From: Haloarcula halobia
GTDB taxonomy: Archaea > Halobacteriota > Halobacteria > Halobacteriales > Haloarculaceae
Direction: 5' to 3'
Length of the DNA: 64,000 bases
Assembly (NCBI RefSeq): GCF_029338255.1
Contig: NZ_CP119787.1
Span: forward strand, 2,681,631 to 2,745,630
Below, in pieces: positions 44,902 through 60,382 of this stretch. Position numbers and translations under genes: made by a program. Each line of letters starts with the position of its first letter. Positions within the stretch are counted from its first letter, which is position 1. Below the pieces are notes generated by a model. It saw only the letters and a program-made list of their open reading frames with translations. It made no database searches and had not been told where the DNA came from.

Positions 44902-45321
44902 GTGCGCTGTGAACGCTGCGGGGAGGCCGTCGAACGGTACGAGCTCGACGGAGCGGCCGCTATCAGCTGCCCGCAGTGTGGCTTCATCGGCGTCCCGGCC
45001 GACCACAGGGCAGAGCCAAAGCCCCACGAGTCCTGGCAGGACGCCTTCGAACGGTTCTACGACCGCTTCGGCGTCGAGGCAGACGGGACGAAGTCGACAG
45101 CGACGGCGATGGTCAGACACCTGACCGACCTGGAGGGGGTAGGGCCGGCCGTCGCGACGCGACTCCGACAGGGCGGCTACGACTCCGTCGACGCGCTGGC
45201 GACGGCGACGCCCGAGGACCTGGAGGCCGTCGACGGGATCGGCCCCAAACTCGCCGCGCGGCTCATCACGCAGCTGTCGGACGAGGAACCCGCGACGGTG
45301 GACGCCGACGGCGGTGCGTGA
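44902..45321 (+). CDS. Zinc-ribbon and helix-hairpin-helix protein
   Basis: 139 residues starting at GTG. An N-terminal zinc ribbon (CERCGE, then CPQCGF at about 2-28) is followed by a C-terminal (HhH)2 domain (LEGVGPAVATRLRQGGYDS and VDGIGPKLAARLI, about 75-125) that usually binds DNA non-specifically. The start codon is the only one that keeps CERC at the N-terminus. A role in DNA repair or chromatin is possible. Confidence 0.65.
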   Translation: MRCERCGEAVERYELDGAAAISCPQCGFIGVPADHRAEPKPHESWQDAFERFYDRFGVEADGTKSTATAMVRHLTDLEGVGPAVATRLRQGGYDSVDALATATPEDLEAVDGIGPKLAARLITQLSDEEPATVDADGGA

Positions 45322-49457: not shown

Positions 49458-50780
49458 ATGACTGACCGGTCACTCGACGAGGGCACGCCGGGCTACGGCG
49501 CCCGCGCCGGCTGGACGCGCGAGCAGGCGAGCCGCATCGAACGGAGCGACGACACCGTCGCCCCGATCATCTACCCGCCCGCCGAGGACCAGATTCCCGC
49601 AGTCCACATCTGGGACACCTGGTTCCTCCGGACCCGCGACGGGCAGCTCGCCGAGGTTGACGGCCACCGCGTCTGTTTCTCGCTGACCGCCCCCGCGGAC
49701 CTCCTGCCGGGCAAGCGCCACGACGTCGCGACCATCCGGTGTTTCTACTCCCCCGACGGGCGGACCTGGCACGACGCCGGCCCCGTCTTCGAGGCACCCC
49801 TCGGCCAGCGCCAGTGGGCTGGGTCGGCGCTGTACGACGGCGGCGACGTCTACGTCTACTACACGGCCGCCGGCGAGGACGGCGCCGACGACCTGACCTA
49901 CACCCAGCGCATCGTCGGCGCGAGCGGTGGGACCATCGACACCGGCGACGGCTTTTCGCTCGAAGGACCCTGGACGCACCACGAACTCCTGTGCCCGGAC
50001 GGCGAGCGCTACGAGCGCGAGGACCAGTCCCGGGGGATGATATACACCTTCCGGGACCCGTGGTTCTTCGAGGACCCCGCCACCGGCGAGACCTGTCTGC
50101 TGTTCGAGGCCAACACCCCCGTCGCCGAGGGCAGCGACGCCTGCGGCGGCGACGCCGCCCAGCAGGAGTTCAACGGCAGCGTGGGCATCGCCCGCTCGCC
50201 GTCGGGCGACCCGCTGGAGTGGGAGCTGGCCGATCCGCTGCTGGACGCCGTCGGTGTCAACCAGGAGCTCGAACGCCCGCACGTCGTCTACAGGGACGGT
50301 CTGTACTACCTCTTTGTCTCCAGTCACCGACACACGTTCGCGCCCGGGCTGGAGGGGTTCGATGCCCTCTACGGGTTCGTCGCCGAGGAACTGCACGGCG
50401 AGTACGTCCCGCTCAACGACTCCGGCCTGGTCGTCACGAACCCGGAGAACGCCCCCTTCCAGTCGTACTCCTGGATGGCGTTCCCACACGACGACGAGGT
50501 GCTGGTCCAGTCGTTTTTCAACTACTTCGACTTCGACGGCGGGACCCTCGACGAGATCGCACACCTCCCCGAGTCCGAGCAGATGCGCCGCTTCGGCGGG
50601 ACGCTCGCGCCCACGATTCGCGTCGCCGTCGACGGGACCCGGACCCGCATCCGCGGCACGCTCGGCCACTGGGAGATCCCGAAGGACGGCGAGGCGCTCC
50701 CGCCGACCGACCGCGAGCTGATTCGACGTGCGCGGGGGCGTGACCGCGGCGGCTACGTCGCTGGGACCCGCGAGGACTGA
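49458..50780 (+). CDS. GH68 levansucrase/inulosucrase
   Basis: 440 residues of glycoside hydrolase family 68. The nucleophile aspartate lies in VHIWDTWFLR (Asp53), the transition-state aspartate in FRDPWFFEDP, and the acid/base glutamate in NQELERPHVV. These match fructosyltransferases that build levan or inulin from sucrose. No Tat or Sec signal is visible at the N-terminus, although the enzyme is usually extracellular. A GH32 gene lies nearby on the opposite strand, so synthesis and breakdown of fructans may be linked. Confidence 0.85.
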   Translation: MTDRSLDEGTPGYGARAGWTREQASRIERSDDTVAPIIYPPAEDQIPAVHIWDTWFLRTRDGQLAEVDGHRVCFSLTAPADLLPGKRHDVATIRCFYSPDGRTWHDAGPVFEAPLGQRQWAGSALYDGGDVYVYYTAAGEDGADDLTYTQRIVGASGGTIDTGDGFSLEGPWTHHELLCPDGERYEREDQSRGMIYTFRDPWFFEDPATGETCLLFEANTPVAEGSDACGGDAAQQEFNGSVGIARSPSGDPLEWELADPLLDAVGVNQELERPHVVYRDGLYYLFVSSHRHTFAPGLEGFDALYGFVAEELHGEYVPLNDSGLVVTNPENAPFQSYSWMAFPHDDEVLVQSFFNYFDFDGGTLDEIAHLPESEQMRRFGGTLAPTIRVAVDGTRTRIRGTLGHWEIPKDGEALPPTDRELIRRARGRDRGGYVAGTRED

Positions 50781-50902
50781 CTGGGACGCCGGCAGTCACC
50801 GCCCTCGTGTCGGGCCGACGTGCTATCTGTGGTGACTGTTCGCTTCGTTGCGCAACACATCTTTATCGTTCCGGAATGACGTTGCGGGTACGACGGATAC
50901 CC

Positions 50903-51832
50903 ATGAGTGAAGACTGGCCAGCGACGACGACCCACCCCCTCGTCGTCGTCGTCGGCCACGGTGACGTGCGCTCGCTGACCGAGCCGCTTGCGTCCGTGCC
51001 GGACGTCACCGTCCGTGACGCGATACCCGCGCCCGCGACCAATGGCGACCGCGAGGCTGCCGGCGCGGCGGTGACGATGTTCGTCACCGACCTCACGGCG
51101 ACCATCGCGCCGACGGCGCGGGACCGACTTGCCAGGCGGGACGGCCTCACGCTCTCGGTGGTCGCGGCCCCGGCGTCGGACGACAGCCTCGACGCGACGA
51201 CGGCGCGGACCGCCCAGTGGCTCCGCGGGGCCGTCGACGCGATGGTCGTCGTCGAACCGGCCCACCACGACCCCGGCGTCCGCCAGGTCGTGAGCACCTG
51301 TGCCGACATCATCTCGCGACCGGGCGTCATCAACCTCGACCTGGCCGACATCGGGACCGTGCTGGGCAGCGGCCGGGTGGCCGCCATCACCACCGGCGTC
51401 ACGCCCGAGGCCGAGGACATGGCCGTGACGGCCGTCAGCGCCGTCGAGGAGGCGCTGAGCGCCCCGGCCGTCGACATCGGCGACTACACCGCCATCCTCG
51501 TGAACCTGGTCGCCGGGAGCGAGCTGACGATCAGCTCGGCCGTCGAGGCCGTCGACGGCATCCAGGCCTCGGTGCCCGACGACGCCCACCTCATCTGGGG
51601 CACCGCCGTCGACGACTCGCTGTCTGACGTCCACGCGCAGGTCGTCGCCGCCGGGAACGACTCGCCGACGTTCGACGCCATCGTCGAGCGGGCGAGCCAC
51701 CCCGACCCCGGCCCGAACAACTGCCCCCGCTGTGGCGGGCACATCGCCGTCTACTCGCTGGGCGACCGCGAGACACGCGCCTGCGAGGACTGTGGCTTCG
51801 CGGACACGCCCGGCGTGGGCACCCGGTCCTGA
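50903..51832 (+). CDS. FtsZ-like tubulin-fold protein without GTP-binding loop, with zinc ribbon
   Basis: 309 residues. From about 50 on the sequence follows the FtsZ fold: the segment that should hold the T4 loop GGGTGTG reads FVDTLTAT-like (MFVTDLTATIAPTARDRLAR, about 59-78), followed by LTLSVVAAPA, the T7 loop GVINLDLADIGTVLGSG (about 155) and the C-terminal domain with AILVNLVAGSELTISSAVEA and LIWGTAVDDSLSD. The G1 loop and T4 loop are lost, but NxDxAD of the T7 loop is kept. Residues 275-300 form a zinc ribbon (CPRCGG then CEDCGF). It cannot bind GTP in the usual way but could still contact the nucleotide of a neighbouring FtsZ or CetZ subunit. Modulator of tubulin filaments is the inferred role. 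Confidence 0.65.
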   Translation: MSEDWPATTTHPLVVVVGHGDVRSLTEPLASVPDVTVRDAIPAPATNGDREAAGAAVTMFVTDLTATIAPTARDRLARRDGLTLSVVAAPASDDSLDATTARTAQWLRGAVDAMVVVEPAHHDPGVRQVVSTCADIISRPGVINLDLADIGTVLGSGRVAAITTGVTPEAEDMAVTAVSAVEEALSAPAVDIGDYTAILVNLVAGSELTISSAVEAVDGIQASVPDDAHLIWGTAVDDSLSDVHAQVVAAGNDSPTFDAIVERASHPDPGPNNCPRCGGHIAVYSLGDRETRACEDCGFADTPGVGTRS

Positions 51833-51841
51833 CCGCGCCTC

Positions 51842-51921
51842 ATACTGCCGGCTGTAACATTTAGAAAATACTCGGCACCCCGGGGTGCCGAGAATCTTTA
51901 CGAACTTACAGCCGGCAGTAT
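51842..51921. repeat. Nested inverted-repeat element (MITE-like or terminator)
   Basis: Outer arms ATACTGCCGGCTGTAA (51842-51857) and its exact complement (51906-51921) enclose a perfect 22-bp palindrome (51871-51892) whose halves are CTCGGCACCCC and GGGGTGCCGAG. The right arm ends on the first base of the GH32 stop codon. Sited between convergent genes, it could terminate both. Terminal inverted repeats plus small size also fit a miniature mobile element. Confidence 0.7.
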
Positions 51922-54086
51922 CAGTCGTCGGGCGGCGCCGTCGGGGCGGCCCCTCTGGCCTCGTCGTGCGCCCACATCGACCCCATCTCCCAGCGGTCCA
52001 GCGACGCGACGGTCGCGCTGCCGCCGTCGGCGGTCAGCGAGACGCCCAGCGCGTCCTCGCGGGTCGGGTAGACCCTGGTCGTCAGGCAGTGGCGCTCGTT
52101 TGCGAACACCTCGACGACCGACCCGTCGACGAACACACGCAGGGAGAGCGGCGCGTCGTAGGGCGTGACCCGCATCGTCTTGGTGTCGCTCGTGGCCTGC
52201 GAGTCGTGGCTGGCCGACGCCCGGTCGACCGCGATATGGCTGTCGCGCGTGTAGCGAATCGGCGTGTACTCCTCGCGGTCGGGCGTCTCCAGGACGGCCA
52301 GTTCGACGGCCTCGGCGTCCTCCAGGCGGACCGTCGCGCGCAGTTCGAACGACCGGCTCTCGGCGTCGAAGTCGACCCGCTCGCCGGCGTCGAGACGAAC
52401 CGCATCGTGGTGGACGTTCTCGCCGCGCAGCTCGGTCAGTTCCGGCGCGGGGCGCTGACAGAGGCCGCCGTCGTCGGCCAGCGACAGCTCGCGAGGGACC
52501 GACATCGCGCCCGACCAGCCGGCGTCCCACTGGGCGCTCACGTCGCGGGCCTCGGGCAACCAGCCCCAGGTGAGGGTGCGGCCGTCGTCGGTCCACATCG
52601 ACTGGGGGGCGTAGTAGTCGCCGTGGTCGAGTCTGTCGCGCCGTTCGACCTCGAACTCGCCGTCCTCGTACTCCCCGACGAAGTAGACGACGTCCTCGTA
52701 GTTCGAGACGTGGAGCAGCTGCTTTGCGCCGAAGTCGAGCAGTTCCGGACACTCCCAGACCGTCCCGTCGAGGTGCTCGTCGCCGGTAAGAATCGGCCCC
52801 TGGTACTCCCAGTCCCGGAGGTCCTCGGACTGATACAGCAGGACGGCGCCGCCGCCGTCCTGCATTCCCGCGCCGATAAGCTGGTTCCAGACGCCGTCGG
52901 CGCGCCAGACGCAGTGGTCGCGGAACTCCCCGTCCCAGTCCTCCGTCGAGAGGACCTGCGGTTCGAGGGGGACCTCCTCGATGATGGGGTTGTCCGGGTC
53001 CGTGACCCACGCGGAGAGGTCGTCGTCGGCCGCCGTGGCGATACAGGGCAGCTGGAGCGTGTCGCGGCCGCCGGTGTAGAGGATGGTCGGCGTCCCGTCG
53101 TCGTCGACGGCACACCCCGACCAGCAGCCGTCGCGGTCCGGGCCGTCGGGCGAGGGCGAGAGCGCGACCGGCCGGTCCGCCCAGTGGACCAGGTCCTCGC
53201 TGACGGCGTGGCCCCAGTGGATGGTGCCGTGGAACGGCCCGGCCGGGTTGTACTGGTAAAAGAGGTGGTAGGTGCCGTCCCAGTGGATGAGTCCGTTGGG
53301 GTCGTTGAGCCAGTTGGCCGGCGCGGTGAGGTGATACGAGGGGCGGTGTGGGTCGTCCGCGAGGCGGCCTCGCAGCGCCGTCATCCCCGCCGTGTCGCGC
53401 GGCCGGTCCGTGAGCGAGACCGTCTCGTCGCCGGCCAGAAAGGCGAGCGCGTCGGCGACGAGTCGCTCGCGGTTCCCCCGACAGACGTCGTCGGTCGGCT
53501 GGCTGAACGAGACGCCGGAGCCGACCCCGAGCACGTCGCCGTCGCCGGGGTGCCAGGTGACCGTCGAGAGCTGCGAGACGACGTCCGTGTCCCCCCGGAC
53601 CGTGCTCGCGAGTACCGTGCCCTCGGCCGGTGCCATCCGCTCGTAGCGGGCGTAGGGCGTCGTCACGCCCGGCCCGCGCGTGTGGACCCGGAGCGTGTCG
53701 AACGCGTCCCGGACGGGGTGGTCACGAAACAGGGTCTTCCAGAGGTGCCCGGCGGGTTCGGGCGTCTCCGCCCAGCCGACGGCGTCTGGGGCGACGGGGT
53801 CGAAACCCAGCGGCTCCACGGCGGCCATCGCGCCCAGCGTCAGCAACAGCGCGCCGCCGTCGCGGACCGAGGACGCGATGCGGTCGGCCCCGCCAACCGG
53901 CAGCTGCGCCTCGTCGAGCGGGTCGTCGCGGTGCCACCAGAGGACGTCGTAGGCCGCCGGGTTGACGTCGGCCAGCGAGCGTCGCTCGACGTCGCCCATC
54001 GCCGAACGGCACCACTCGTACGCTCGCTCCTGCTCGTCGGAACAGGACCCGGCGTAGAGACAGCCGACACGTGGGGTGTCTGCCAT
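51921..54086 (-). CDS. GH32 beta-fructosidase with N-terminal ThuA-like domain
   Basis: 721 residues. The C-terminal about 480 residues are GH32: nucleophile in [12 protein letters not shown] (about 250), RD motif in EFRDHCVW, acid/base glutamate in VWECPEL, and the beta-sandwich tail with [11 protein letters not shown]. The first about 230 residues ([20 protein letters not shown] to [11 protein letters not shown]) resemble a ThuA/class I amidotransferase-like Rossmann domain, an unusual fusion. Likely substrates are sucrose, levan or inulin. No signal peptide, so cytoplasmic. Confidence 0.8.
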
Positions 54087-56591: not shown

Positions 56592-56804
56592 ATGCCCCGC
56601 ATCCGACTGGACCCGCCGGAGTTCGAGCGGTCCACCGACGCCACCGGAGGGAACGACCGAACGGGTCGGGCGGCCGCTCGCGACGACGCCTTCGCCCGGA
56701 TCGACACCGAGGTGTTTCAGGTGCTCTCGGGGACCTACGGGCTCGAGAAGTGCGGGCTCCGACCGCGAATCGATCGCTGGATGGAGTGCTGGAGCGACGT
56801 TTAG
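56592..56804 (+). CDS. Small haloarchaeal protein, unknown
   Basis: 70 residues starting MPRIRLDPPEFERSTD and ending RPRIDRWMECWSDV. Its ATG lies about 27 bp after a CCTTTACC box near 56560, as expected for a leaderless gene, and the helical C-terminus looks coding. It overlaps the actin gene tail to tail by 4 bp. Confidence 0.5.
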   Translation: MPRIRLDPPEFERSTDATGGNDRTGRAAARDDAFARIDTEVFQVLSGTYGLEKCGLRPRIDRWMECWSDV

Positions 56805-57865
56805 CTGTTCTCGACCAGGCGGGCGGCGATGCGCTGTGCGCCGAGGGTCGGGGCGACGTCCGGCTGTTCGGCCGCCGTCGCCTCGACGTCGCGGTTGAGC
56901 TCCTCGCTGAGTCGTTCCTCGAACTCGTCGACGATGCCTGGGATGCAGGCCATCCCGCCGGTCAGGACCACCGGACGGTCCAGCGCCAGCTTGTACACCT
57001 TCATGTAGTCGTTCGCCAGCTCCGGCAGGAACGTGTTGGCCAGCTCGTCGACTACGTCGTCCAGGTACTCGTCGACGGCGTCCATCACCGACCGCTCGAT
57101 GGTGAACTCGTGTGACCCGCCACCGGGTTGCTGGATGATGTCCGTGAACGGTTCGAAGTCGATGAAGTCGGCGTGTTCCTCCTTGTACTCGCGGGCGGTC
57201 TGGGTGTCGATGTTGACCCGGCCCTGGGTCTCCTCCTCGACGTAGTTGGCGATCATCCGGTCGACCTCGTTGCCCGTCACGGCACCGGTGGTGAACGGGG
57301 AGAGCTGTTCGCCCCGTCGGTACGCGGAGGCCTCGAGGTTCGTCGACCCCATGTTGACCGCGACGAATATCTGGTCGATGGCCTCCAGGTCGTCGCCGAA
57401 GGCCGGAATCGACCCGCAGAGCGACTCGGGGTAGCTCTCGACTAACTCCATGCCGATAGAGGACCCCTCGATGACCGACTGGAGGTTCTCCAGTCCCGTC
57501 GGGTTGTCGATGGTCGGAATCGCGTAGACGACGCCGCTGTCGGCCGGGAGGTCGTTCTCCTCGATGAGGGCCTCGAAGAACGTCTCGGTCATCTCCGCCC
57601 GGTCTGCGTCCTCCGGCAGCCCCGAACGGAGCATGTACTGGACCCGGTCGGGGTACTCGCGAGCGGCCTCCTCGCCGTAGAGCACCTTCTCCTCGCCGGT
57701 GAGGGCGTCCTCGTAAGTTGCCATGCAGGTCAGCGTCTTGATGATGCGTGTGTCGGTACCGTGGTCGTCCGGGAGCGCGATGACCGTCCGCGTGCTGCCG
57801 AGCTTGACCCCGATCGGCACCACCCCGTTGGCATCGTCCGCCCCGTCAGCGTCGTCGTCACTCAT
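56801..57865 (-). CDS. Actin/Hsp70-superfamily protein, salactin-like
   Basis: 354 residues. Phosphate-1 loop VKLGSTRTVIALPDD (about 19-33), phosphate-2 loop VAVNMGSTNLEASAYRRG (about 167) and adenosine motif PVVLTGGMACIPGIVDEF (about 305) define an actin-fold ATPase. Length and first loop resemble salactin, the dynamically unstable haloarchaeal actin described in Halobacterium, better than MreB or DnaK. It has its own TATA-like box about 26 bp upstream (57891-57900) and follows the FlaCE-domain gene on the same strand. A polymerising partitioning or polarity factor is the inferred role. Confidence 0.7.
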   Translation of the reverse strand: MSDDDADGADDANGVVPIGVKLGSTRTVIALPDDHGTDTRIIKTLTCMATYEDALTGEEKVLYGEEAAREYPDRVQYMLRSGLPEDADRAEMTETFFEALIEENDLPADSGVVYAIPTIDNPTGLENLQSVIEGSSIGMELVESYPESLCGSIPAFGDDLEAIDQIFVAVNMGSTNLEASAYRRGEQLSPFTTGAVTGNEVDRMIANYVEEETQGRVNIDTQTAREYKEEHADFIDFEPFTDIIQQPGGGSHEFTIERSVMDAVDEYLDDVVDELANTFLPELANDYMKVYKLALDRPVVLTGGMACIPGIVDEFEERLSEELNRDVEATAAEQPDVAPTLGAQRIAARLVENS

Positions 57866-57890
57866 GTACGGTGGCCTGTTGACGCTGGTC

Positions 57891-57900
57891 CGGTATATAA
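57891..57900 (-). promoter_or_regulatory. TATA-like box of the salactin-like gene
   Basis: On the minus strand GTTATATACC lies 26 bp before the ATG at 57865. Confidence 0.5.
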
Positions 57901-57947
57901 CCTCACGTCAAGAATCAGCCGTGATAAACCCGCGGTCGGCCTCGGAC

Positions 57948-58445
57948 TCAGCGCATCGCCGACAGCTTGGCGACGTAGACGAGGCTGAGCAGGTGGTCGT
58001 CGACGCTCAGGGTGTTGTCGTCGTTCGTCGCCGACTCGTCGATGCCCAGCAGGTAGTCCGAGAGCGTCGCCTGGACGTCCTCGGTTATCCAGTCGATGGA
58101 CTCGTAGTAGTCCAGCGCCTCGTCGGCGCCCTGGTAGCCCGAGTGCATCAGGAGGAACTCCAGCCACTCGAAGACCACGAACTCGGCGGCGTAGTTCTCC
58201 GGGAGGGCCGCGAGGTACGGCTTCTCTGCCGTCTCGCCACCGAGGAACGGCAGCAGTTCGCGGTAGAGGCCCGACCGGAAGGAGCTGCCCGCGAGCATCT
58301 CCTCCTCGGCGTCTTCGAGCCCGATGTCCAGGTTCGACGGGTCAGGGACGTCTTCGTCGTCGGCCAGCCCGTTGTCCCGGTCGTCGCGCTGTCGGGCCAT
58401 CTTGCGCAACTCGTCTAGATCGTAATCGCGCGGGTTTATGGTCAT
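57948..58445 (-). CDS. FlaCE/FlaD-domain protein
   Basis: 165 residues. The C-terminal about 110 residues contain KPYLAALPENYAAEFVVFEW, then YYESIDWITEDVQATLSDYL, the signature of the FlaD/FlaE (ArlD/E) domain that links the archaellum motor to the chemotaxis machinery. Upstream is an acidic helical arm. It lies outside any archaellum operon, next to ParA, CheW-domain and actin genes. Start at 58445 is supported by a TATA-like TTTATG box about 30 bp upstream. Confidence 0.8.
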   Translation of the reverse strand: MTINPRDYDLDELRKMARQRDDRDNGLADDEDVPDPSNLDIGLEDAEEEMLAGSSFRSGLYRELLPFLGGETAEKPYLAALPENYAAEFVVFEWLEFLLMHSGYQGADEALDYYESIDWITEDVQATLSDYLLGIDESATNDDNTLSVDDHLLSLVYVAKLSAMR

Positions 58446-58576
58446 GTGACAGCTGTGTTCCGCCTCCTCCGTCATAAACCTTGCACCCCGTCTGACGGCC
58501 GTCAGACGGCCAGATACCGAGAAATCACCGAGATTCGCAATGCCGCACCGAGTTACGCGGATGATAATCGGGGGCG

Positions 58577-58587
58577 TATTTTTATAG
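58577..58587 (+). promoter_or_regulatory. TATA-like box of the parA-cheW operon
   Basis: TATTTTTATAG ends 33 bp before the ATG at 58620. Confidence 0.45.
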
Positions 58588-58619
58588 TGGCCGAGGGTCG
58601 AGATTCCTCCAGTTGGACG

Positions 58620-59516
58620 ATGAGTCGGCACGACGACGCCGGTCCGGCCCGCATCTGCGTGACCAACGCAAAGGGCGGGACCGGGAAGACGACGGTCGCG
58701 ATAAACGTAGCGGGAGCGCTGAACGACCGGGGTCGAGACGTCCTCTTCGTCGACCTGGACCCGCAGGGCAACGCCACGGAGGGGCTCGGACTCGTCGAGG
58801 CCTACGACGCCGACCCGCCGTCGCTGTTCGACGCGCTGACGCGTGACCCCGCACTCCTCTCGGACCTGGTGGTCGAACACGAGGAGATGGACGTCGTCCC
58901 ATCGAGCATCGACATGCTCCAGGCCGAACACGAGCTGACGATAGCGGACCTGATCGCCCGTGCCAGGACACAGGACCGCGACGTCGACCCGGCCGCGCTG
59001 GCCTCCTTTGGGTTCAACGTGACGCCGGCGACGGTCGAGGGCGGGCACGCCCTCGACGTGCTCGACCGGGCGCTGGGGACGGTCAAATCCGAGTACGACT
59101 ACGTCATCATCGACTCGCCCCCCTTCTACGGGAAGCTGACCGACACCGGCGTGTTCGCCGCGCGGCACATCCTGGTCCCGGCGCTGGCGGAGGCCACCTC
59201 CGAGCGGGCCATCGAACTGCTGATGGACCAGATGGCCGCGCTGGAGCGCCAGACCGGGATCAGCGTCGAGACGGTCGGCGTGGTCGCGAACCGCATCGAG
59301 GCCACCTCGGAGGACGAGATGATGCTCGAGTGGTTCGACGCGGCCTTCCCGGACAGTCCGGTGTGGCAGGTCCGCAAGCGCGTCGCGCTCCAGCGGGCCT
59401 ACACCGCCGGGAACTCCGTCTTCGGCGTCGAGGAACAGTGTGACATGGCCAGCGTCTTCGAGGACATCGCCGACAGGTTCGACGAGCAGTTCGGATTCAC
59501 CGAGGTGATAGCATGA
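58620..59516 (+). CDS. ParA/MinD-family ATPase
   Basis: 298 residues with the deviant Walker A KGGTGKTT (about 17), the A' motif LFVDLDPQGNA and Walker B YVIIDSPP (about 163). It thus dimerises on ATP and most likely forms gradients on the nucleoid or membrane. It overlaps the CheW-domain gene (ATGA at 59513-59516) and diverges from the FlaCE-domain gene. No ParB or replication origin is nearby, so positioning of a protein array fits better than plasmid segregation. Confidence 0.85.
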   Translation: MSRHDDAGPARICVTNAKGGTGKTTVAINVAGALNDRGRDVLFVDLDPQGNATEGLGLVEAYDADPPSLFDALTRDPALLSDLVVEHEEMDVVPSSIDMLQAEHELTIADLIARARTQDRDVDPAALASFGFNVTPATVEGGHALDVLDRALGTVKSEYDYVIIDSPPFYGKLTDTGVFAARHILVPALAEATSERAIELLMDQMAALERQTGISVETVGVVANRIEATSEDEMMLEWFDAAFPDSPVWQVRKRVALQRAYTAGNSVFGVEEQCDMASVFEDIADRFDEQFGFTEVIA

Positions 59517-60382
59517 GTGACGACGACCGCATGGACAGAGCAGAGCGTATCCGCAAGATGCGCGAGGGGAACCGGACCGAGACAGACGCGGACGCGACTG
59601 ATGGGCCGGCGGACGACGTACAGGAGACCGCCGCGGGCAGCGAGGGGTCGGGTGAGTCCGAGACGGCCGACCCCGACGAAGCGCCCGGCGACGAGACGGC
59701 GATGGCGGCCGCCGAGCGGGCCGCCCAGACGGCTGCGGAGGTGGCCGGCGGGACAGACGCCACGGCCCAAGCCACCGAGGAGCTGCAGGCGGCCACGCAG
59801 GCGGCCGCCGAGACGGCGCAGGGCCCGACGGGCGTCGAACTCCCCGACCAGCAGGTCGTCGAGGCGGCCATGGCAGAGAGCGAGGCCGAGGAGACGACCG
59901 GCGCGGCGAGCGCCGCGGCCATGGACGAGGGGTCGAACCAGTCAGAAGAGCTCGTCCGCGTCCTCGAGTTCGCGCTGGGCGAGGAATATTACTGCCTGGA
60001 CATCGAGTACGTCGAGGAGATCGTCAAGCGCGAGGACGTGACGCGGGTCCCGAACACCGAGGCCTACGTCGAGGGCGTGGTCGACCTCCGGGGACAGATA
60101 ACGACGATTCTGGACCCGAAGGCGATGATGGACATCGACGACGACGGCGACCAGAATCTCATCGTCGTCTTCGATCCCGACGTGTTCGAAGAGCAGGGGG
60201 CCATCGGCTGGATCGTCGACGAGGTCCGCCAGGTCTCGCCGGTGGTCGAGGCGGAGGTCAACAGCCCTCCGGTCGACGCCGACTACATCAACGGCGTCGT
60301 CGACCGGGAGGAACGAGAGCAGTTCGTCATCTGGGTCGAACCCGACGACGCACTCGAGTCGGCCACCGCCGAGGGCGACTGA
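59513..60382 (+). CDS. CheW-domain protein with acidic N-terminal extension
   Basis: 289 residues. Residues about 1-140 are low-complexity, acidic and alanine-rich. Residues about 143-280 form a CheW-like domain (VLEFALGEEYYCLDIEYVEEIVK, VVDLRGQITTILDPKAM, EEQGAIGWIVDEVRQVSPVV). The extension resembles linkers that link chemosensory arrays to positioning ATPases. It is translationally coupled to the ParA gene, so the two most likely act in one complex. Confidence 0.8.
   Translation: MSDDDRMDRAERIRKMREGNRTETDADATDGPADDVQETAAGSEGSGESETADPDEAPGDETAMAAAERAAQTAAEVAGGTDATAQATEELQAATQAAAETAQGPTGVELPDQQVVEAAMAESEAEETTGAASAAAMDEGSNQSEELVRVLEFALGEEYYCLDIEYVEEIVKREDVTRVPNTEAYVEGVVDLRGQITTILDPKAMMDIDDDGDQNLIVVFDPDVFEEQGAIGWIVDEVRQVSPVVEAEVNSPPVDADYINGVVDREEREQFVIWVEPDDALESATAEGD

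Follow-up and report, generated by a model that had tools for sequence, protein, structure and literature searches.

The window analyzed here, a stretch of 64,000 nucleotides from the halophilic archaeon Haloarcula halobia (contig NZ_CP119787.1), contains on its forward strand, at positions 50903..51832, an open reading frame of 309 amino acids plus stop. We call it the pseudo-FtsZ gene, an assignment based on matches to the FtsZ_C and ftsZ profiles and to FtsZ structures in the PDB, together with a family alignment. A gene in Halomicroarcula sp. SYNS111 is 95% identical to it. In the window's clade, pseudo-FtsZ is flanked by a convergent pair of genes encoding a GH68 levansucrase and a GH32 protein (49458-54086). 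After this pair come a gene with a sub-threshold Mrr match and then genes for salactin (PF25229), an archaellar DE-type protein, a ParA-type ATPase, and a CheW-domain protein. The last four form a block (56801-60382) that is conserved in the genus with or without pseudo-FtsZ.

Comparison of these neighborhoods gave no clue to what the protein does. Five members of the genus that do not carry pseudo-FtsZ have the same block undisturbed and show a clean absence of the gene, with only about 66-90 bases between the GH matches. The neighbors in other clades are different: cobalamin genes, fumarase and succinyl-CoA synthetase, or a large secretion-type ATPase (read from the sequences, not from profile matches). 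One locus (L038) was left out of the gene-order table because it had no called pseudo-FtsZ gene. A functional link with the salactin and archaellum genes was rejected, because the block is intact in the five noncarriers and the neighbors differ elsewhere; a link with the levansucrase/GH32 pair was rejected as well, because locus L047 (genome G031) lacks both of these genes yet has pseudo-FtsZ. Nor did the neighborhoods compared across clades reveal a conserved link with division genes. Since the neighbors vary by clade and the gene is missing from otherwise intact blocks, genomic context gives no function. In one genome (G118, locus L039), FtsZ1 lies about 4.5 kb from pseudo-FtsZ, an arrangement unseen in the other neighborhoods compared.

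Just 3' of the gene, at 51836-51927, is a palindromic element with two 46-nt arms that are 78% complementary and end in ATACTGCCGGCTGTAA. This end sequence has 12 copies per strand genome-wide (allowing at most one mismatch; a reversed control gave 0), mostly in pairs spanning 80 bases, and the element is probably a small mobile or MITE-like repeat.

Homology, distribution, and descent

The similarity to FtsZ is seen with several methods. The Pfam model of the FtsZ C-terminal (GTPase-activating) domain, FtsZ_C (PF12327), matched residues 175-251 (51425..51655, forward strand) with an E value of 1.2e-10 and 42 bits, against a cut-off of 27, and it matched all 19 of the pseudo-FtsZ members scanned (19 of 40). 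The NCBIfam ftsZ model gave E 6.1e-18 and 65.3 bits, far under its equivalog cut-off of 295.2, and in a phmmer search of the PDB the protein matched solved FtsZ structures, down to E 2.6e-14. For the Pfam Tubulin domain (PF00091) no match to the protein was listed at E up to 10. A PF00091 search of the host genome found four other genes, with the pseudo-FtsZ gene not among them; going by their sequences, we take these four to be FtsZ1, FtsZ2, and two CetZ genes.

Profile-profile alignment (hhalign) of 19 members with three haloarchaeal FtsZs gave a match at 99.7% probability, with E 2.4e-25, over columns 2-251 of 301. The match starts at the N terminus and the S1 strand, so that homology runs from S1 to S10, implying that the reduced N-terminal domain is also homologous to FtsZ. 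Identity to FtsZ is 20-24%. Judged by these alignments, the homology is far over chance, and the window protein is a reduced FtsZ, more than a C-terminal domain alone. Structure prediction contributed less, both models being of low confidence. A model made from the window protein and one 96%-identical relative had a mean pLDDT of 38.4, and one made with added FtsZ rows from viral-collection contigs had a mean of 47.3. The best 50 listed PDB matches of the latter were all FtsZ, only one of them with E < 0.001, and because FtsZ rows were present in its input alignment, these matches add little. Support for a tubulin fold comes from the sequence.

Members of the pseudo-FtsZ family were collected from 146 genomes of the host family and 391 genomes of the class, yielding 40 members, one in each of 40 genomes: 23 came from the window's family, 16 from family f4, and 1 from f2. 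They separate cleanly from true FtsZs, in that members score at least 197 bits with the family profile and true FtsZs at most 148 bits. In the class sample (Halobacteria), 29/391 genomes are carriers. Within the window's genus the figure is at least 11/32, a lower bound because it comes from a protein query. A phylum sample of 246 genomes contained six carriers, all in the window's order; outside that order and the Halobacteria, none was found in the 203 other genomes of the phylum. With only 29 of 391 class genomes carrying it, pseudo-FtsZ is patchily distributed and is dispensable for division in most species.

A search for viral relatives with the family alignment found none. We also observed that 25 IMG/VR contigs (L098-L122) encode FtsZ relatives, possibly phage-borne FtsZ; 19/25 of the frames have 307-311 residues and stop soon after the C-terminal domain, with the usual tail absent.

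In phylogenetic trees the family forms one clade, with an SH-aLRT of 100 when all 40 rows are included and values of 100/99 in a second tree with 18 of the 40. It groups with FtsZ1 with bootstrap/aLRT support of 96/89, a long branch being involved, and the alternative grouping with FtsZ2 was not rejected (AU p 0.112). The family profile scores 136-148 bits for FtsZ1 versus 93 for FtsZ2. The two CetZ loci (L004 and L005) had no family-profile match listed at E up to 1e-5, and the tree with the FtsZ1 grouping was built without CetZ. The nearest relatives of pseudo-FtsZ therefore appear to be FtsZ1 proteins, although this affiliation is not firm.

The GTP site, the T7 face, and the zinc ribbon

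The original prediction for this gene was of a tubulin-fold protein in which GGGTGTG had been replaced by VTDLTAT and the G1 loop had gone. The replacement is as predicted: in the alignments, residues 61-68, VTDLTATI (51083..51106, forward strand), stand in the place of the GGGTGTG (T4) signature, with VTDLTAT itself at 61-67, and GGGTG is absent from 40/40 members. The G1 loop has degenerated rather than disappeared. Residues 14-20, VVVVGHG (50942..50962, forward strand), correspond to strand S1 and a degenerate G1 (T1) loop and align with the GCGGAGGN stretch of FtsZ1; the strand and the first Gly of the loop are present in 37/40 members. Elsewhere, the damage to the GTP site goes further than had been claimed, reaching S2-H3 and T6/H6. 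Most of S2 to H3, about 60 residues, is missing, as are about 17 residues around T6/H6. The corresponding family fill is 0.39 and 0.17 for S2-T2-H2-S3-T3-H3 and 0.15 for T6 through H6 to the start of H7. T7-H8, S8-H10-S9, and S10 are filled completely across the family.

Individual residues lead to the same picture. We used the S. aureus numbering of PMC8936486 and mapped it onto FtsZ1 by motif. Among residues that contact a subunit's own GTP, the equivalents of N25, N44, and Q48 are each found in 0/40 members and that of N166 in T6 in 1/40; those of D46 and R143 are kept in 12/40 each, in an N-terminal stretch of uncertain alignment. In the alignment used for residue counts, row L003 (FtsZ2) had its N terminus trimmed, so that N-terminal FtsZ counts stand at 11/12 and the N-terminal identities of 0.00 for that row are meaningless. 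As read from these alignments, pseudo-FtsZ has lost the residues for holding its own GTP, and its GTP-binding face is dismantled.

The T7 loop, in contrast, is kept, as predicted. NLDLAD (residues 144-149; 51332..51349, forward strand) has the pattern NxDxxD, and N144, D146, and D149, the equivalents of S. aureus N208, D210, and D213, are present in 40/40 members; the middle Ala is replaced by Thr in 8/40. A second conserved site is Trp232-Gly233 (51596..51601, forward strand) in strand S9, at the neighbor-facing interface, which is found in 40/40 members of the family and in 12/12 FtsZs.

How selective this retention is can be seen from a column test. In 141 columns, 11 or more of the haloarchaeal FtsZ1/FtsZ2 rows shared one invariant residue, and 84 of these columns were filled in at least 36/40 pseudo-FtsZ members. 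At only five of the 84 was the identical residue present in all 40 members, and these five are N144, D146, D149, W232, and G233. The remaining 79, a good many of which likewise lie in the C-terminal domain, varied within the family over a family subtree whose length is 18.1 substitutions per site. Simple arithmetic from the 84-column counts puts the chance of the T7 triad falling among the five kept columns at about 1e-4. The central idea of the original prediction, namely GTP binding lost, a trans-catalytic face kept, and a ribbon added, is borne out in that no FtsZ-invariant residues other than the T7 triad and the Trp-Gly of S9 are found in 40/40.

The phmmer alignment places LIWG of the window protein on MIFG of the FtsZ chain 3wgj, which we take to be S. 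aureus FtsZ; the spacing suggests that this MIFG is residues 292-295. In S. aureus filaments, N208, D210, and D213 of T7 are reported to position the catalytic water and to contact the neighbor's nucleotide site; in S9, M292 and F294 reach the neighbor's nucleotide through their backbones, via water (PMC8936486). With Trp-Gly lying on the MIFG of S9, all five conserved FtsZ residues, including the T7 triad, would be on the face that touches the GTP of the next subunit. Of the two longitudinal faces of FtsZ, pseudo-FtsZ thus retains only one.

Tubulin provides a comparison that bears on catalysis. In beta-tubulin, the GTP opposite the T7 loop stays unhydrolyzed, and residue 254 of this loop is Lys, in contrast to the catalytic Glu254 of alpha-tubulin (PMC13394414), implying that the third T7 acid is free to drift where catalysis is unneeded. 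By analogy, the presence of Asp at the third T7 position in 40/40 members speaks for a hydrolyzable GTP facing the T7 loop of pseudo-FtsZ.

At the C terminus is the zinc ribbon that had been foreseen, and it replaces the FtsZ tail. The ribbon (51722..51796, forward strand) has the form CPRC-x16-CEDC at residues 274-297, and its four cysteines (Cys274, 277, 294, and 297), together with Arg276 and Gly298, are present in 40/40 members. Pfam gave only generic zinc-ribbon matches to it, and similar but weak ribbons occur at other places in the host genome. Within the window, a small protein encoded at 44902-45321 has an N-terminal zinc ribbon like that of pseudo-FtsZ (24.6 bits with the family profile), along with helix-hairpin-helix motifs.

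A candidate regulator acting in trans

What might a protein with only one face of FtsZ do? We consider that pseudo-FtsZ probably serves to regulate the division filament, not to build it. Our preferred reading, to which we give a probability of about 0.5, is that it is a one-faced FtsZ paralogue, a pseudoenzyme whose target in trans is a true FtsZ (FtsZ1 being the likeliest), and that it works both as a GTPase-activating protein (GAP) and as a sequestering or capping regulator. The host genome also encodes FtsZ1, FtsZ2, and two CetZ proteins, which we count for a trans-acting reading, and the apparent descent of the family favors FtsZ1 over CetZ as the candidate partner. A more specific version, in which a pseudoenzyme that has shed its nucleotide site uses its T7 face as a trans-acting GTPase-activating cap for FtsZ1 and is sited by the zinc ribbon, is held a shade more tentatively, at slightly under even odds.

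Within an FtsZ filament, each subunit rests with its T7/H8/S9/H10 face on the GTP face of the adjacent one; growth occurs at the end that exposes T7, incoming subunits arriving GTP face first, a polarity that the authors themselves call tentative (PMC8936486). The T7/H8/S9 face kept by pseudo-FtsZ could dock on an FtsZ monomer, at its GTP-bound face, or on a terminal subunit whose GTP face is exposed. Once docked, pseudo-FtsZ would supply the catalytic T7 acids, making the neighbor's GTP hydrolyzable, and it would block the GTP face of that FtsZ against the addition of more FtsZ, ending the chain. An FtsZ monomer carrying pseudo-FtsZ would be unable to add at the growing, T7-exposed end. The zinc ribbon may tether the protein to a partner or a site. 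The expected net effect, presumably negative, would be that FtsZ assembly is lowered or relocated.

The original prediction envisaged a filament-end cap or disassembly factor, and here the two ends need to be distinguished. Capping is coherent at the GTP-exposed end. Poisoning of the growing end goes against the polarity reported in PMC8936486, because a growing end that exposes T7 could not be blocked or poisoned by a protein in which T7 is present and the GTP face is lost. Hydrolysis at the GTP-exposed end would not in itself break a filament, and this leaves sequestration with GAP activity, capping of the GTP end, or nucleation as coherent outcomes. Given that growth polarity (PMC8936486), we favor a trans-acting GAP and sequestering factor that also caps the GTP end.

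Nucleation deserves to be taken seriously, as it is the main rival and would involve the same docking with the opposite net effect. Pseudo-FtsZ held by its ribbon would capture GTP-FtsZ through the T7 face and seed a filament growing outward, serving as a nucleator or anchor at the GTP end, loosely as the gamma-tubulin ring templates microtubules. Retention of the T7 triad and the S9 Trp-Gly fits this equally; incoming FtsZ is described as attaching, GTP face first, to an exposed T7 face (PMC8936486), the very face that pseudo-FtsZ has kept; and a ribbon in place of the FtsZ tail could be the anchor. However, the retained catalytic acids would hydrolyze the captured GTP and so weaken the seed, and most Halobacteria must form FtsZ filaments without pseudo-FtsZ, given its presence in 29/391 genomes. 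We consider nucleation unlikely. Also doubtful, in our view, is a role that involves no contact with FtsZ at all. The T7 and S9 residues could be kept for the fold or for some other ligand, such as a metal site, with the ribbon doing a separate job, for example nucleic-acid binding. It is consistent with this that N208 is in addition a K+ ligand within T7 (PMC8936486), that the gene shows no synteny with division genes, and that zinc ribbons are widespread, one of them being in the protein at 44902-45321. But a structural need would not single out neighbor-facing residues, when 79/84 FtsZ-invariant, filled columns have varied.

Two further readings have much less in their favor. The partner might be CetZ, or pseudo-FtsZ itself in a nucleotide-free homopolymer, instead of FtsZ. 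The host genome does encode two CetZ proteins, but the best relatives of the family are FtsZ1 proteins, and the family profile listed neither CetZ locus. A homopolymer would need a partner face, yet T2, T3, T4, and T6 are deleted or variable, which would leave the invariant catalytic triad without a substrate; we regard partners of either kind as very improbable. Lastly, loss of the GTP-binding motifs and a patchy distribution are what might be expected of a decaying pseudogene copy of FtsZ. This reading was rejected, and we give it almost no weight: it is contradicted by a dN/dS of 0.13-0.26 in 8 pairs of family genes, which indicates purifying selection, and it sits poorly with the open frames and with 12 residues that are invariant across the 40 genomes.

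If pseudo-FtsZ is indeed a trans-acting regulator of FtsZ, it would be a regulator built from half of the filament's own interface. Few FtsZ regulators are known in archaea. A family that is without nucleotide-site motifs and has kept, without exception in 40 genomes, the five FtsZ-invariant residues that face the neighbor's GTP amounts to a separation-of-function experiment done by nature on this interface. With it one could test whether completing the active site in trans is sufficient to trigger hydrolysis, at which end archaeal filaments grow, and whether pseudo-subunits regulate tubulin-type filaments.

Comparison with known systems

Many FtsZ-like families are reported in Haloarchaea (PMC8178401), and some archaeal FtsZ paralogues are without known motifs (PMC2875224, where the available passages do not describe the pseudo-FtsZ family). 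In the open-access literature, including passages of PMC2875224, PMC9871819, PMC9856176, PMC8178401, PMC8187382, and PMC7439475, we found no description of a GTP-dead FtsZ family with a zinc ribbon, although some earlier tree or table may list it. Two divergent prokaryotic FtsZ-like families, FtsZl-1 and FtsZl-2 (Makarova and Koonin 2010), carry GGGTG(S/T)G, the motif used to find or recognize them (PMC2875224), which pseudo-FtsZ does not have. With archaeal FtsZ1 and FtsZ2, pseudo-FtsZ shares homology from S1 to S10 and identical T7 N/D/D and S9 Trp-Gly residues; it differs in being without a GTP site, in missing the roughly 60 and 17 residues of the N-terminal domain, and in having a ribbon for a tail. 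CetZ, too, is a haloarchaeal paralogue in the tubulin superfamily, but the CetZs of the host genome keep GGGTGSG and, unlike FtsZ1 and FtsZ2, are not listed by the family profile.

For the proposed function, a works-like analogue is the chloroplast division regulator ARC3, which has an FtsZ-like domain. ARC3 binds FtsZ1 and FtsZ2 and is a negative regulator (PMC5471200, PMC5855766), and it is reported to enhance FtsZ2 GTPase activity and disassembly (PMC5855766). ARC3 differs in being a plant protein, controlled by PARC6, and in having a MORN region, of which Pfam scans of the window protein and 19 family members found none. MciZ resembles the proposed role in being an end cap for FtsZ (PMC8936486). 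It binds the T7 (bottom) face of FtsZ, whereas pseudo-FtsZ, a homologue of FtsZ in its own right, would attach to the GTP face on the opposite side.
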